This document shows positions 5,911 through 62,618 of a stretch of 64,000 nucleotides of DNA, piece after piece. Below the pieces are notes generated by a model. The model worked only from the letters and a program-made list of their open reading frames with translations. It made no database searches and was not told the DNA's origin. The stretch covers positions 1 through 64,000 of the forward strand of contig JAHDVK010000026.1 in NCBI GenBank assembly GCA_023384675.1, read 5' to 3'. Made by a program: the position numbers and the translations under genes. The DNA is from Bryobacteraceae bacterium. Its GTDB lineage: Bacteria > Acidobacteriota > Terriglobia > Bryobacterales > Bryobacteraceae. Every line of letters begins with the position of its first letter. Within the stretch, counting starts at the first letter, position 1.

Positions 5911-7788
5911 ATGGTACCCCGGCACACGTCCTTTTCGGAGCGCACCTCGCGGCGGCAAGCCCGCGGACTGCATCCTGTGGAACAGAAGAAGAGCGCCAAC
6001 TGGTCTGCCGTCTGGCCGGATATCCGCGAGTTGATCCGCCCGCGCCGTGGTCAGCTTCTGCTGGGGCTGGCGCTGATCATCATCAGCCGCGTGGCGGGCC
6101 TGGTGTTACCGGCGTCCACGAAGTTCCTGATCGACGATGTCCTGGCGAACCGGCGCGTGGAACTGCTGGCCCCGCTGATTCTGGCGGTACTGGGCGCGAC
6201 GGCGGTGCAGGGCGTGACGGGCTTCTGGCTGACGCATTTGCTCTCGAAGTCGGCGCAGAAGCTGATCGCGGAGCTGCGCTGCAAGGTGCAGGCCCATGTC
6301 GGGCGGCTCCCGGTGGTGTACTTCGACACGAACAAGTCCGGACAACTGGTTTCGCGCATCATGAACGACGTCGAAGGGGTGCGCAACCTGGTGGGGACGG
6401 GACTGGTGGAATTTGTGGGCGGTCTCCTCACCGCTGTGTTGTCGTTTGTCGTGCTTTTGAACATCAGCCCGAAGCTCACCCTGATGGCGCTGGCGGTGGT
6501 TTCGGTGTTCACGCTGGTGCTGCGGTATGCGTTCAACACGCTGCGGCCGATTTTCCGCGAGCGCGGCAAGATCACGGCCGAAGTCACGGGGCGGCTGACG
6601 GAAACGCTGGGCGGCATCCGGGTGGTGAAGGGCTACCACGCCGAGGAGCGCGAGGAGCGCGTGTTTGCCGCGGGCGCGCAGCGGATTTTGAACAACGTGA
6701 TGCAGTCACTGACCGGCGTGGCGCTGCTGAGCCTGTCCGCGACGGTGCTGCTGGGCATCGTGGGCGCGCTGGTGATGTACATGGGCGGGCGCCAGATTCT
6801 GGACGGCACACTCACGCTGGGCGGCTTTGTCACGTTCACGGCCTTCATGGCGTTCCTCGTGGCCCCGGTCTTTCAGGTGGTGGGCATCGGGACGCAGCTT
6901 ACCGAAGCGGTGGCGGGGCTGGAGCGGACGCGGGAGATCCTGGACGAGCAGGCCGAGGACCGGGATCCGTGCAGAACCGAGACGTTGCCGCCGCTGCAGG
7001 GCGAGGTGCGCTTCGACCAGGTGGAGTTCCACTACGAAGAAGGCAAGCCGGTGCTGCGCGGGGTTTCGTTCGAAGCCGCGCCGGGGACGGTGACGGCGCT
7101 GGTGGGTTCGTCGGGGTCGGGCAAGTCCACCACGATCGGCCTGATCGCGGCGTTTCACAAGCCCTGCGCGGGCCGGGTGCTGGTGGATGGTGTGGATTTG
7201 AGCGCGGTGCGGCTCGATAGCTACCGCACGCAGATCGGCGTGGTGCTGCAGGAGACGTTCCTTTTTGACGGCACGATTCGCGAAAACGTAGCGTTTGCGA
7301 AGCCGGAGGCGAGCGAGGAACAGATTCTGGAGGCGTGCCGGATCGCGCGGGTGGACGAGTTCGTGGAGCGGTTCCCGGATGGCTATGAGACCGTGGTGGG
7401 CGAGCGCGGCGTGAGGCTTTCGGGCGGGCAAAAACAGCGCGTGTCGATTGCCAGAGCGATTCTGGCCGATCCGCGCATCCTGATTCTTGACGAGGCCACG
7501 TCGAGCCTGGACAGCGAGACGGAGGCGATGATCCAGGAAGGTTTGGCCTATCTGATGCGGGGGCGAACGACGTTCGTGATTGCGCACCGGCTGTCCACGA
7601 TCCGGCGCTCGGATCAGATTCTGGTGATGGAGGGCGGGGAGATCGTGGAGCGCGGCACGCACGAAGAACTGTACGAGGCGCGCGGGCGTTATCACGAGTT
7701 GTACACACGCCAGCACGGGCTGGAGCGAAACCTGTTTCTGGCGCCGGGCGAGGGCGACTCGGCGGAAGAGCCGGCGGAGGCGCCATGA
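5911..7788 (+). CDS. ABC exporter half-transporter, fused membrane and ATPase domains (MsbA/multidrug type)
   Basis: 625 residues. The first 320 or so form an ABC exporter membrane domain with about six hydrophobic helices (for example LLGLALIIISRVAGLVLPAS). The ATPase domain has Walker A ALVGSSGSGKSTTIGL, a Q-loop in IGVVLQETFLFDGTI, the signature RLSGGQKQRVSIARAIL, Walker B ILILDEATSSLD and the switch VIAHRLSTI. Such proteins work as dimers in the inner membrane and export lipids or drugs; the sequence cannot tell which. The start is unclear: ATG 5911 nearly touches the divergent isomerase gene, and GTG at 5977 (VEQKKSANW) would be closer to the first helix. It is coupled to the next gene by an ATGA overlap. 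Confidence 0.9.
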   Translation: MVPRHTSFSERTSRRQARGLHPVEQKKSANWSAVWPDIRELIRPRRGQLLLGLALIIISRVAGLVLPASTKFLIDDVLANRRVELLAPLILAVLGATAVQGVTGFWLTHLLSKSAQKLIAELRCKVQAHVGRLPVVYFDTNKSGQLVSRIMNDVEGVRNLVGTGLVEFVGGLLTAVLSFVVLLNISPKLTLMALAVVSVFTLVLRYAFNTLRPIFRERGKITAEVTGRLTETLGGIRVVKGYHAEEREERVFAAGAQRILNNVMQSLTGVALLSLSATVLLGIVGALVMYMGGRQILDGTLTLGGFVTFTAFMAFLVAPVFQVVGIGTQLTEAVAGLERTREILDEQAEDRDPCRTETLPPLQGEVRFDQVEFHYEEGKPVLRGVSFEAAPGTVTALVGSSGSGKSTTIGLIAAFHKPCAGRVLVDGVDLSAVRLDSYRTQIGVVLQETFLFDGTIRENVAFAKPEASEEQILEACRIARVDEFVERFPDGYETVVGERGVRLSGGQKQRVSIARAILADPRILILDEATSSLDSETEAMIQEGLAYLMRGRTTFVIAHRLSTIRRSDQILVMEGGEIVERGTHEELYEARGRYHELYTRQHGLERNLFLAPGEGDSAEEPAEAP

Positions 7789-8318
7789 GCGCGAGGCCGG
7801 GGAACAGATATGTGACGCTGGCGCTGTTTCTCTGCGCGGTGATTTTCGCGGGGTTTGCCGTGCAGCGGTTCATGGAGATCAAGCTGACGGGCAGCCTGGA
7901 TGAGCCTGCGTTCAAGGAGGCCAGCGACGCGGAGGCGGAACTGAAGGCCGAGTTTAACAACGCGGCTGACCAGACGCGCGTGATGGTTCTGTTGAGCGCT
8001 GGTTCGCTTTCGTCCGAACAGGATGTGGATGCGTTACGGCGGGTGTTGCGGGAGAACCGCGGGGCGCAAGTCCGGCTGCTGGCGGTGTGGCGCGGCGCGA
8101 AGCCGCTGCGGGCGCACACGACACGCTTCGGGGACGGCCGGGTGCGGCATTTCTGGGACGCGGAGAGGCGGGTGCTGTCGGAAACGCTGGAGGGGACGGT
8201 GCTGGTGTTCAAGCCGGGCGTGCGGTGGACCGTCGAGTTCCCTGCGGCGGCGGAGCAGGGCGAGCCGGCGCGCGCAGTGCTACCCCTGATCCGGCGAGCC
8301 TTCGGCACCGGCGGGTAA
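7785..8318 (+). CDS. Single-pass membrane-anchored protein of unknown function
   Basis: 177 residues, not recognised. An N-terminal hydrophobic segment (YVTLALFLCAVIFAGFAV) would anchor it, leaving a soluble domain of about 140 residues outside the membrane. That domain alternates basic strands (RVLRENRGAQVRLLAVWRG) and acidic helices without a known motif. It overlaps the ABC exporter stop by 4 bases, so it is probably co-translated with it and could be an accessory subunit. Its 3' end overlaps the convergent YkgJ-type gene by 39 bases. Confidence 0.7.
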   Translation: MSARPGNRYVTLALFLCAVIFAGFAVQRFMEIKLTGSLDEPAFKEASDAEAELKAEFNNAADQTRVMVLLSAGSLSSEQDVDALRRVLRENRGAQVRLLAVWRGAKPLRAHTTRFGDGRVRHFWDAERRVLSETLEGTVLVFKPGVRWTVEFPAAAEQGEPARAVLPLIRRAFGTGG

Positions 8319-9068
8319 GTCCTCCAGACCTTGCAGTTTGGCCAGGAATCGCTTAAGCATGTCGGGCGCGAAGACGCTGGCTTCGGGCGGCGGATTGGCT
8401 GCGGCGAACTGCAGCGAAAGCACCAGGGGCACGAGAATAAAGCGGGTGCGGCCGTCGCCGTCACCAAACGTGGAAAGCGCGTGCGAGGGCTTGCCGGGCA
8501 GATAGACGCCTTCCACCTTTTTCCCGGCCGGGTCCTGGCAATGGATGGCGTCGGAGGTGACGAGGTATTCGCGGCAGCTCATCGGCCGCACCTCGTGGAT
8601 GCTGCACGATTCGTCCTCGAGGAACGGGCACGGCACGCCGAGCTTGAAGTAATCGAGGCCCAGCCGTTCACGCTCTTTCGCATCGAGCATCTGGTGAAGC
8701 TGCTCGATGCGCAGGCGGAGGCCTGCAGATTCCAATTGCGCGACGGCGTCGCGAAAGCGCAGCAGGATTCGCGTGCGCCGGGGTTCGGGCATGTCCAGAA
8801 CGAACTGGGCCAGCGCGCGCGCTTCATGTTCGGTGATCGGCACGATCTGGCGGCAGCACGCGCCGCAGCCGGCGCGGCAGCTGATGGCGCGGCCCTCGTT
8901 TTCGATCTGTTTCACGGTGATCTGGATGAGCGTACTGCCGATGCCGTGAAAAACGGGCAGCATCTCCTCCACCGTGACCGGGGCATTGGGCAACTCCACT
9001 TCGCCCTGAATGGTGACGCCGCTGGACTTGAGCTGAAAGCTCGCGATTCCGGTTTCGGGACCCGCCAT
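8280..9068 (-). CDS. YkgJ family cysteine-cluster protein
   Basis: About 262 residues. A metal-binding Cys cluster is obvious: ISCRAGCGACCRQIVPI (CxxxCxxCC), then CPFLEDESCSIHEVRPMSCR. This is the YkgJ/Fe- or Zn-chelating pattern found in a widespread family of unknown biochemical role. The remainder, including a helical region between the two Cys blocks and a C-terminal VLSLQFAAANPP segment, has no recognised domain. The start at 9068 follows AGGGG very closely; ATG 9086 (MWQTQG) is an in-frame alternative. It is divergent from ruvA, with only 39 bases between the starts, and convergent with the preceding gene. Confidence 0.85.
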   Translation of the reverse strand: MAGPETGIASFQLKSSGVTIQGEVELPNAPVTVEEMLPVFHGIGSTLIQITVKQIENEGRAISCRAGCGACCRQIVPITEHEARALAQFVLDMPEPRRTRILLRFRDAVAQLESAGLRLRIEQLHQMLDAKERERLGLDYFKLGVPCPFLEDESCSIHEVRPMSCREYLVTSDAIHCQDPAGKKVEGVYLPGKPSHALSTFGDGDGRTRFILVPLVLSLQFAAANPPPEASVFAPDMLKRFLAKLQGLEDLPAGAEGSPDQG

Positions 9069-60515: not shown

Positions 60516-60693
60516 CGCCGCGATTTGTTCGCACAAGCCCGCCGGGTGCAAGGGGGCAGGCCAGCCCGGGACACTCTCGGAAGTCCGCCCTAACCCACTA
60601 ATTCTGATAGGCTACGGCCCTGCGTTGCCCCCGGCTGACACCGGGGGCTCAAGCGGGGTCCAATCCGGCGGCATGGTTTACGAGCAGCCCGGG
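60516..60693. other. Intergenic stretch, no gene recognised
   Basis: 178 bases between the glycine-zipper stop and the inverted-repeat element, with no credible open frame. It contains the perfect hairpin at 60627-60648 annotated separately; apart from that I see no promoter or repeat. Confidence 0.5.
60627..60648. repeat. Perfect 8-bp hairpin, possible dispersed intergenic repeat
   Basis: GCCCCCGG and CCGGGGGC flank the loop CTGACA. There is no U-run on either strand, so this is not a standard terminator. Wording of this kind is familiar to me from intergenic repeats in Acidobacteria and Planctomycetes, but that is memory and needs a search. It lies 46 bases from the MITE-like element. Confidence 0.4.
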
Positions 60694-60873
60694 ACAGCCT
60701 GACCCGCCCCAGCGCACTTTCCTACGAAATCTTAAATGGTTGAAAATAAACGAACTTCCGCCGCACCAGGCACTCACGATTATACCGACGGCCGCGGCAA
60801 CCGGACTATCGCTGCGGAGAAGCGCCTTTGAATGACTTAGATCCAAAAAGTGCCCTGGGACGGGTCAGGCTGT
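60694..60873. mobile_element. MITE-like element, 180 bp with 27-bp terminal inverted repeats
   Basis: Left end 60694-60720 (ACAGCCTGACCCGCCCCAGC then GCACTTT) and the reverse complement of 60847-60873 match at 25 of 27 bases. The interior, about 126 bases, is A+T-richer and encodes nothing. No clear target-site duplication flanks it. The size, long inverted ends and lack of coding capacity are those of a miniature inverted-repeat element or an insertion-sequence relic. Its right end is 15 bases from the stop of the foreign-looking gene at 60889. Confidence 0.72.
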
Positions 60874-60888
60874 TGCGATGAGCGCCGA

Positions 60889-62328
60889 CTATTCCAAGCG
60901 ACCGCTTGGCTCCCATTCGTCTCGGGCATGATAACAGTTCCAAAAGGTCTCCCGCAGGAGGGTATCGTTTGTTTGTAGGCGAACCGTCGAATTGGTTATC
61001 CGCTCTGTAACACGAAAGTAGCCCTGCCTTGGTTGCGATAAGCTATATTCCATTCGATTCTCGAAAATTCGATACAGTAATGTGATCACGTCCTCGACAG
61101 AGCAGCATGCCATCGCTCCTACTGCAACGCCAGAGGAAAACTGAATGAGTCGACTTAGCGGATGAATCTCGCTAAAGAATCGGCGACGAACGTCATCGTC
61201 GCAATAGAAAATCACGGGCTTCCCAAGGCTGAGGGCCATAGCAGCCTCGGCATCCTTCCCGTAGCTGTCGCCAGATCCTGCCGTATACACCAAGACCTTC
61301 GCGCACTTGACCATTAGGCATTCCAACAGGCCCTTATCCTCGTGTCCACGTGCCGCACTTAGCGTCGGGTCGAAGAATCGCAGGTTATACGGTGCAAGTG
61401 TATTGTGCGAAAAGATAGCATCACAAGTTTTCGCCATCGTGCGGAACTGGTCACGGTTTCGCATGCTGGTTGCAACGTACACATCTAGATCATTAGCCAT
61501 AGACAGATAAAGCGTCGTATTCTGGAGTGCTGCGGACCTAGATCTTGTAAACTTGCCTCTGATAGTATCGTATTTCTCGCGAAGGGCCTCTTGTGAGGTA
61601 ACTTCATCTTCTAGAATTTCGTCAGTAGAGAAAGCAAAAGCGGATTGCCTTTCGCGAAAGCGTGGATCAATAGCAGCCTCACTAAGAAGGTCCTTCGTGC
61701 GGAGCGGCCCACTGTTTCCACCGTTGCTTAGCTTGAGGAAGGCACCTAAGAGCGCATGCCACAAATCCTCATCGCCGCCATCAGGGGGTTCGAAGGTCTT
61801 ACATGCTTGCTCGGCGATCAGGTACCTGTCGTCTTGCGGTATGCGATTCAATTCAAGCGAGGCTCCTCTTCTAATCATGCCTGCAGTGTCGAATTTTTGT
61901 GAATTGTAGTAACTTTCTATTTCTTCGAAAGAAAGATCACGCAAGACAGAAAATCCATTCCTGATACTTCCGAAGAACATAAGTGAGTCAATGTAAAGCC
62001 TGTAAAGCCCCCATGCAAGCTGATCAATCGTCAGAATGCTTTCGCATTTCGAATAACTATTATCATAATACGGAAGAGCCTCGATATTGTAGATGTGCTT
62101 CGGCACGCTACACCAGTAATATTCGAAGAAACCATCCGACACGCCAGGTTGATGCGAGAGGGCTAGCAATTGGTTAAGAGTTGCTCTGCTAACCGGTTCG
62201 TTGCCGGATGTTGGCGCTTCGAGCTTTCGAAGCCGCTCCCAGACGACCCCCTCACCTGTTGGCGAGAGCCATGAATCGATTCCGCCCGTCTGTCCAGAGA
62301 AGAGTGCAAGCTTTTCGGATATAGGCAT
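60889..62328 (-). CDS. Candidate defence protein: unknown N-region plus deoxyribosyltransferase/TIR-like C-domain
   Basis: 479 residues. Base composition is visibly lower in G+C than all neighbours. Residues 1-270 have no recognised domain: helical, several aromatics and Cys, but no export signal. From 281 the protein shows a Rossmann-like domain: LDVYVATSMRNRDQFRTMAK, YNLRFFDPTLSAARGHEDKG, LLECLMVKCAKVLVYTAGSG and DSYGKDAEAAMALSLGKPVI. The last block resembles nucleoside 2-deoxyribosyltransferases (D-x-G...E-x-x-x-A-x-x-x-GKP), with Glu361 a candidate catalytic residue; TIR and SLOG-type domains share the layout. Such domains in bacteria often degrade or sense nucleotides during phage defence. 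No helper gene is adjacent. Confidence 0.7.
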   Translation of the reverse strand: MPISEKLALFSGQTGGIDSWLSPTGEGVVWERLRKLEAPTSGNEPVSRATLNQLLALSHQPGVSDGFFEYYWCSVPKHIYNIEALPYYDNSYSKCESILTIDQLAWGLYRLYIDSLMFFGSIRNGFSVLRDLSFEEIESYYNSQKFDTAGMIRRGASLELNRIPQDDRYLIAEQACKTFEPPDGGDEDLWHALLGAFLKLSNGGNSGPLRTKDLLSEAAIDPRFRERQSAFAFSTDEILEDEVTSQEALREKYDTIRGKFTRSRSAALQNTTLYLSMANDLDVYVATSMRNRDQFRTMAKTCDAIFSHNTLAPYNLRFFDPTLSAARGHEDKGLLECLMVKCAKVLVYTAGSGDSYGKDAEAAMALSLGKPVIFYCDDDVRRRFFSEIHPLSRLIQFSSGVAVGAMACCSVEDVITLLYRIFENRMEYSLSQPRQGYFRVTERITNSTVRLQTNDTLLRETFWNCYHARDEWEPSGRLE

Positions 62329-62618
62329 GCCGTGACCAGGACTGCCAGTATATCCGAAATGCGACTTTTTGCCAAGGCATAAGGAGGGATTTCGATATCG
62401 GTGACTTTTTGCTCACTCACTTTATCTCGGATTTGACTGCCCCAGAGCAACGGGGAGTATCCGGGCTGAAGGGCCACTCGACTGCACGACCACAGGAAAT
62501 CAAGGAATCGGCAGCTGCGCCACCCGCGGATAGGACAGGGCCGTCAGCCTATTCGTCCGGCGATCCGAATGGAGCATGGTGAACGTCACCAAAATCCTCC
62601 CAAATGCCCCACCCCCGC
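62329..62618. other. Intergenic region with promoter, no gene recognised
   Basis: About 290 bases between the foreign-looking gene and the oxidoreductase stop. Apart from the promoter at 62347-62375 I see nothing. A minus-strand open frame of 104 codons (62163-62477) overlaps the gene in another frame and is rejected. Composition remains low in G+C up to about 62450 and then returns to the chromosomal level, so the foreign segment seems to end there. Confidence 0.5.
62347..62375 (-). promoter_or_regulatory. Near-consensus sigma-70 promoter of the foreign-looking gene
   Basis: On the minus strand TTGGCA (62375-62370), a spacer of exactly 17 bases and TATACT (62352-62347) match the -35/-10 consensus at 4/6 and 5/6. 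The predicted transcript would start near 62340, only about 12 bases before the ATG at 62328, with no clear Shine-Dalgarno, so translation may be nearly leaderless. Confidence 0.65.

Follow-up and report, generated by a model that had tools for sequence, protein, structure and literature searches.

A solitary gene of a Bryobacteraceae bacterium encodes a predicted NDT-like domain joined to a helical domain: a candidate one-gene anti-phage enzyme

Domains of the NDT (nucleoside 2-deoxyribosyltransferase) type act on the base-sugar bond, which they cleave or exchange via a covalent Glu intermediate. In prokaryotic immunity, DrHyd and TIR domains serve as NADase effectors (PMC9503650), and the TIR-DrHyd-SLOG class described by Aravind and colleagues comprises Rossmannoid domains that act on nucleotides in the role of effector, signal maker or sensor and recurrently have HTH, zincin and 2TM partners (PMC9503650). 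Retron-Eco1 (Ec86), a type II retron, carries an NDT-like effector, and the system is reported to defend by NAD+ hydrolysis (PMC12405507). In turn, the TIR-like NADase DUF4062/Swarozyc is a defence protein that combines an NDT/TIR-related domain and a conserved Glu with an auxiliary domain (PMC13174449).

The protein considered here, P0001, falls in the same domain class as the TIR-DrHyd-SLOG networks, and no published description of its family with its helical N-terminal domain, nor any library model for the family, was found. P0001 shares the NDT-type domain with Retron-Eco1, but stands alone and has different accessory domains. A type II retron places a reverse transcriptase and an ncRNA beside its NDT effector; RVT_1 (reverse transcriptase) has no match in the whole host genome, and Rfam has none at the P0001 gene. 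Like DUF4062/Swarozyc, P0001 has a conserved Glu and an auxiliary domain, but it appears nearer to NDT than to TIR by predicted structure, and the Pfam DUF4062 model does not match it at E 10.

The gene lies close to one end of the window, that is, the whole stretch of 64,000 nucleotides that was analysed, where the following features were located:

60889..62328, minus strand: gene for the solitary 479-residue protein P0001, made up of a helical N-terminal domain, an NDT-like domain and a C-terminal beta-hairpin and helix, according to full-length homologues and the predicted model
62347..62375, minus strand: promoter-like site TTGGCA-17-TATACT, matching the consensus at 10 of 12 positions and ending 19 nt before the ATG
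60690..60873, no strand assigned: 184-bp inverted-repeat, MITE-like element, one of nine near-full-length copies in the genome, probably outside the system

The reading frame runs for 479 codons from an ATG with 0 internal stops, and DVYVATSMRNRDQF, FDPTLSAARGHEDKGL and DSYGKDAEAAMALSLGKP start at residues 282, 319 and 354, respectively; the coordinates, translation and motif positions of the lone ORF singled out in the original prediction were thereby confirmed. Its assignment as a coding sequence is not due to chance, since 74 homologues align along its length and dN/dS amounts to ~0.09-0.17 in three close homologue pairs, values from which purifying selection on the protein can be read. As had been claimed, the gene lies below all its neighbours in G+C (49.7% versus 62.6-72% in the six neighbours; GC3 52.1% versus 77.6-85.2%). 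It is present in a single copy in the genome of its host, a soil bacterium, flanked by a dusB/glycine-zipper pair and a Gfo/Idh/MocA-type ORF, and these flanks contain no helper gene, in agreement with the earlier observation. Farther along the same contig, beyond the window, an ORF at L018:14765-15409 has a PIN/VapC-like toxin sequence, an observation read from sequence only.

Two further elements attributed to the locus fared less well. The promoter described as near-consensus is present, but it weighs less than its 10/12 match would imply, as the region contains 4 such sites versus 1.6 +/- 1.5 in shuffles, that is, little above them. The inverted repeat, reported as 180 bp long, does exist as a 184-bp element 15 nt past the P0001 stop codon, with 27-nt arms that are 93% complementary. 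However, eight further near-full-length copies, with 77-80% identity, lie on other contigs of the genome, and the element therefore seems to be a dispersed MITE-like repeat, not specific to the P0001 gene and probably unrelated to its function; as a generic genome-wide repeat, it was rejected as a component of the system. The nine near-full-length copies (window and L006-L014), whose terminal inverted repeats measure 27-31 nt (GGGACAGCCTGACCC...), form two sequence subgroups spread over six contigs.

The protein itself divides into the following parts:

61498..62328, minus strand: all-helical N-terminal domain, residues 1-277, a putative sensor or oligomerisation module (modelled alone, no clear PDB match)
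61054..61491, minus strand: predicted NDT-like Rossmannoid domain, residues 280-425 (VIA-align to NDTs; weak PF05014 and LDcluster4 matches in other members)
61246..61248, minus strand: codon of Glu361, the predicted catalytic nucleophile (invariant in 74/74; hhalign to the Glu of NDT/DNPH1)
60892..61053, minus strand: C-terminal beta-hairpin and helix, residues 426-479, with the invariant Arg450 (model and alignment)

The AlphaFold2 model of P0001, computed on the family alignment, has a mean pLDDT of 93.9 and a pTM of 0.92. Compared by VIA-align, its residues 278-425 match 7m5h with a Z of 13.4, and the NDT-like domain of this predicted model matches bacterial NDTs with Z 11.5-12.4 (rmsd 2.3-2.7, 123-131 residues aligned), DNPH1 with Z ~10, and the TIRs of MAL, SPARTA, SARM1 and MyD88 with Z 9.7-10.9, below most bacterial NDTs. 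The model strongly supports the view that residues 280-425 adopt an NDT/DNPH1 fold, nearer to NDT than to TIR. It had been proposed that this region holds a deoxyribosyltransferase/TIR-like domain, and that a predicted fold unlike Rossmann/TIR would speak against it; structure prediction and fold search of the C-terminal region returned a Rossmannoid/NDT fold, with Z 11-13 to NDTs and ~10 to DNPH1 and TIRs. Ribose-1,5-bisphosphate isomerase/eIF2B proteins, first in the Foldseek search with the whole model, were rejected: these matches span the model and their rmsd exceeds 11, while NDTs give a good fit to the domain.

For the NDT assignment, predicted structure provides stronger support than the profile match. 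Neither PF05014 nor the TIR models of Pfam match P0001 at E 10, PF05014 weakly matches 4 of the 74 relatives (best 1e-3), and SLOG LDcluster4 gives weak matches in other family members. Against an NDT/DNPH1-like profile built for hhalign from sampled genomes of the same phylum, Glu361 aligns to the catalytic Glu in a short and modest match of 34 columns (P 0.0025), and Glu336 falls at or near the NDT substrate-binding Asp position only when this alignment is extended by hand. Across the 74-member alignment, in P0001 numbering, R154, N270, D282, Y284, T287, S288, M289, F319, P321 and T322 are invariant, as are K332, E336, L338, G357, K358, E361, H389, P390, L391, G404 and R450. DVYVATSM and LRxFxPT served as search patterns, so that invariance there is partly ascertainment, while K332, E336, G357, K358, E361, H389 and R450 lie outside the genome-scan patterns. 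Glu361, already put forward as the key residue, is likely the catalytic Glu, being invariant in 74/74 and aligned to its NDT/DNPH1 counterpart. The basic residues (K332 and K358, invariant; R290 and R317, near-invariant) suggest a phosphorylated substrate, e.g., a nucleotide or NAD. P0001 resembles NDTs and the DNPH1/MilB N-glycosidases of the PF05014 type in its predicted Rossmannoid fold (Z 9.5-12, 112-138 residues) and in the alignment of Glu361 with the catalytic Glu of their GxxxE-A...GKPV motif. It differs from them in that it is apparently not a small metabolic enzyme, has no PF05014 match even at E 10, and adds helical and C-terminal domains as well as invariant TSM, K332 and HPL positions.

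Modelled alone, residues 1-277 reach a pLDDT of 91.9, and a PDB fold search with them found nothing above Z 3.9 (VIA-align), an absence of match that is no proof of a new fold. The N-terminal domain shows 19-39% identity to the window's clade versus 54-71% for the core, the lowest value (L092) being partly due to a masked stretch, and by these comparisons it diverges faster than the core. A swap of the N-terminal sensor between L088 and L092 was rejected, as in the record a run of N takes the place of the L092 end and creates a frame artefact. Of the new N-terminal sensor envisaged at the outset, the part that holds is a separate helical unit without a clear known fold; the sensor role is putative.

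Profiles of Pfam, NCBIfam, PADLOC and PHROGs do not match P0001 (Pfam and PADLOC, with its anti-phage profiles, at E 10). Since a single-sequence scan of genome contigs with P0001 gave no relatives, these were sought by whole-genome search and then with a three-member alignment. The former found two distant relatives among 396 genomes of the phylum (the gene being present in 3/396 overall), and the latter picked out 88 related stretches among GTDB species genomes, from which a set of 80 loci was retained; 74 members were aligned along their length. Relatives of P0001 are encoded at no fewer than 80 loci, distributed over more than a dozen phyla of bacteria and archaea, among them Acidobacteriota, Planctomycetota, Chloroflexi, Bacteroidota, Myxococcota, Spirochaetes, Clostridia, Verrucomicrobia and others, and archaeal members include Lokiarchaeota, Hodarchaeota and Woesearchaeota. 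It is a real family with a wide distribution, and apparently none of the libraries tested lists it. The window protein falls in a clade of 23 rows (SH-aLRT 100), whose short loop occupies the position at which others have inserts of up to ~130 residues, and a 17-row clade (SH-aLRT 99) has an N-terminal extension of at least 84 residues.

Horizontal transfer with frequent loss is strongly supported for the family, because its tree mixes phyla throughout (e.g., Acidobacteriota with Chloroflexi), and the gene occurs in 1/61 sampled genomes of the same family, is absent from the one same-genus genome sampled, and is found in so few genomes of the phylum. The G+C and GC3 of the P0001 gene, so unlike those of its neighbours, likewise point to mobility. 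At the equivalent site in three relatives (G410, G450 and G399) the dusB/glycine-zipper pair is kept and the genes beyond it differ, suggesting a variable spot. In G399, what reads in the sequence as an apparent HEPN/nucleotidyltransferase pair occupies this site (L154:4649-5429). At three related loci (L060, L075 and L078) the gene is broken into two ORFs by a frameshift or stop, consistent with either recurrent decay or assembly errors. Searches by tblastn at E 1e-5 found no P0001 relatives in PLSDB plasmids or INPHARED phages, where a mobile defence gene would usually be expected to turn up, although the members are mostly from uncultured lineages. Among 41 loci scanned for tRNA integration, tRNA genes lie close upstream at L084 alone.

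A conserved partner gene was sought next to the family; none recurs, and the family gene is therefore usually solitary. The neighbours of most homologues, including the window's closest clade, are ordinary or mixed, and the 122 neighbours scanned in that clade gave scattered defence matches only. In other parts of the family, an HTH-fused member at L064 overlaps HmaC by 4 nt and follows HmaB (L064:1328-9617), making it possible that it acts as a regulator or extra effector of Hma; the L069 member is located downstream of a DISARM helicase of the DrmD type, separated from it by one long ORF; and L063 adjoins a type IIG RM enzyme and is preceded by a small AHJR-like REase gene. Adenine methylases adjoin L054, L058 and L067 (the latter two by similarity to the L054 neighbour), a PDC-M30/M41 gene lies by L085 (L070 and L078 by similarity), L095 precedes the gene of a dGTPase-like HD protein, and Cas1 is near L020 (L021 by similarity). 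PADLOC matches on the relatives are dominated by HTH-type models, with a few weak single-member ones. As a separate observation, small REase-like genes adjoin three members (L045:1871-2191; L063:771-1076, AHJR-like; L060:4485-4784), and in L045 and L063 they overlap or abut the start of the family gene.

The viral contig L136 (IMG/VR) has a member alone (7425-8861, plus strand), antisense between the portal and terminase genes. This is a typical position for phage-borne accessory genes. The L136 member was the only sign of phage carriage found. Taken as a whole, the defence association of these neighbourhoods is suggestive only, and homologues are not confined to vertically inherited metabolic contexts, as their occurrence is patchy and cross-phylum, with some members located at defence loci or, in one case, on a viral contig.

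It is unlikely, though it is the alternative that survives best, that P0001 belongs to a family of nucleotide-sensing regulators, in which the NDT-like domain would bind a nucleotide, HTH-fused members would control nearby defence genes, and P0001 itself would work via a partner regulator or be a remnant. WYL regulators, for instance, control BREX and CBASS. HTH Pfam models match 17/74 aligned members, with the XRE-type HTH sequences in one clade, two HTH-fused members lie beside the Hma and DISARM genes (L064 and L069), and a non-fused member has a separate HTH and an M78 peptidase gene upstream. However, P0001 and its entire 23-member clade are without HTH, no regulator is paired with them, and the Glu and the basic residues are invariant even in members without HTH.

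A metabolic or housekeeping enzyme, namely a DNPH1-like N-glycosidase of nucleotide salvage or sanitation with an extra domain, is quite improbable. Metabolic NDTs and monophosphate N-glycosidases of the DNPH1/MilB type have the folds nearest to it, the neighbours in the window are ordinary metabolic genes, and the invariance of the active site would suit a metabolic enzyme just as well. On the other hand, the patchy presence (1/61 and 3/396), foreign G+C and phylum-crossing tree are unlike a housekeeping gene, as are the broken copies and the phage-borne one.

Least likely is a signal-producing enzyme, whose NDT-like domain would make a nucleotide messenger (e.g., a derivative of ADP-ribose) to open a small effector in the membrane, in the manner of TIR-SLATT pairs: two-TM proteins of the 8xMP family (PF24838) directly follow two very divergent members (L066:8704-9192, after 37 nt; L067:9053-9538, with a 4-nt overlap), and similar TIR/SLATT neighbourhoods with HTH and zincin genes are published (PMC9503650), but this pairing occurs in 2 of ~80 loci only and 8xMP has no match in the window's genome. 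The two 8xMP neighbours may represent a two-gene version of the system. With neither a reverse transcriptase nor an 8xMP partner matched anywhere in the genome, the stand-alone character first ascribed to P0001 holds.

The explanation preferred here, in which belief and doubt weigh about equally, is that P0001 is a mobile, self-contained conflict enzyme, a nucleotide or NAD N-glycosidase with a built-in sensor, most likely directed against phages. By analogy, the best reading is that it would work like the NDT effector of Retron-Eco1 without the retron. The core at residues 280-425, closed by the HPL motif and the C-terminal hairpin, would be an N-glycosidase of the NDT/DrHyd type, with Glu361 as the nucleophile in the cleavage of the bond that links base and sugar in NAD or in a phosphorylated nucleotide. 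The faster-evolving helical domain (residues 1-277) would keep the enzyme inactive and sense an infection cue; once triggered, P0001 would deplete or convert a nucleotide pool, stopping the infected cell. In some relatives, an HTH domain may serve autoregulation, or a small adjacent membrane protein may be a partner.

Extended to the whole family, the proposal is more tentative: bacteria and archaea, including Asgard lineages, may possess a hitherto undescribed family of immune enzymes that consist of one protein each. Direct sensing of infection would fall to a helical fold of unknown origin, which would then activate a nucleotide/NAD N-glycosidase of the NDT type. No retron, Thoeris, CBASS or any other partner would be needed, and some variants would be fused to an HTH or have a membrane partner. 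If this is true, it would be a widespread one-gene immune enzyme targeting nucleotides or NAD that PADLOC has missed, and no solved structure is clearly related to the fold of its sensor domain. It would also allow a direct test, inside a single polypeptide, of how infection can control an NDT domain, familiar both as a metabolic enzyme and as the effector of Retron-Eco1. Even if its role were regulatory, P0001 would define a sizeable family, with 80 loci or more, that goes unrecognised as such in Pfam, NCBIfam and PADLOC.
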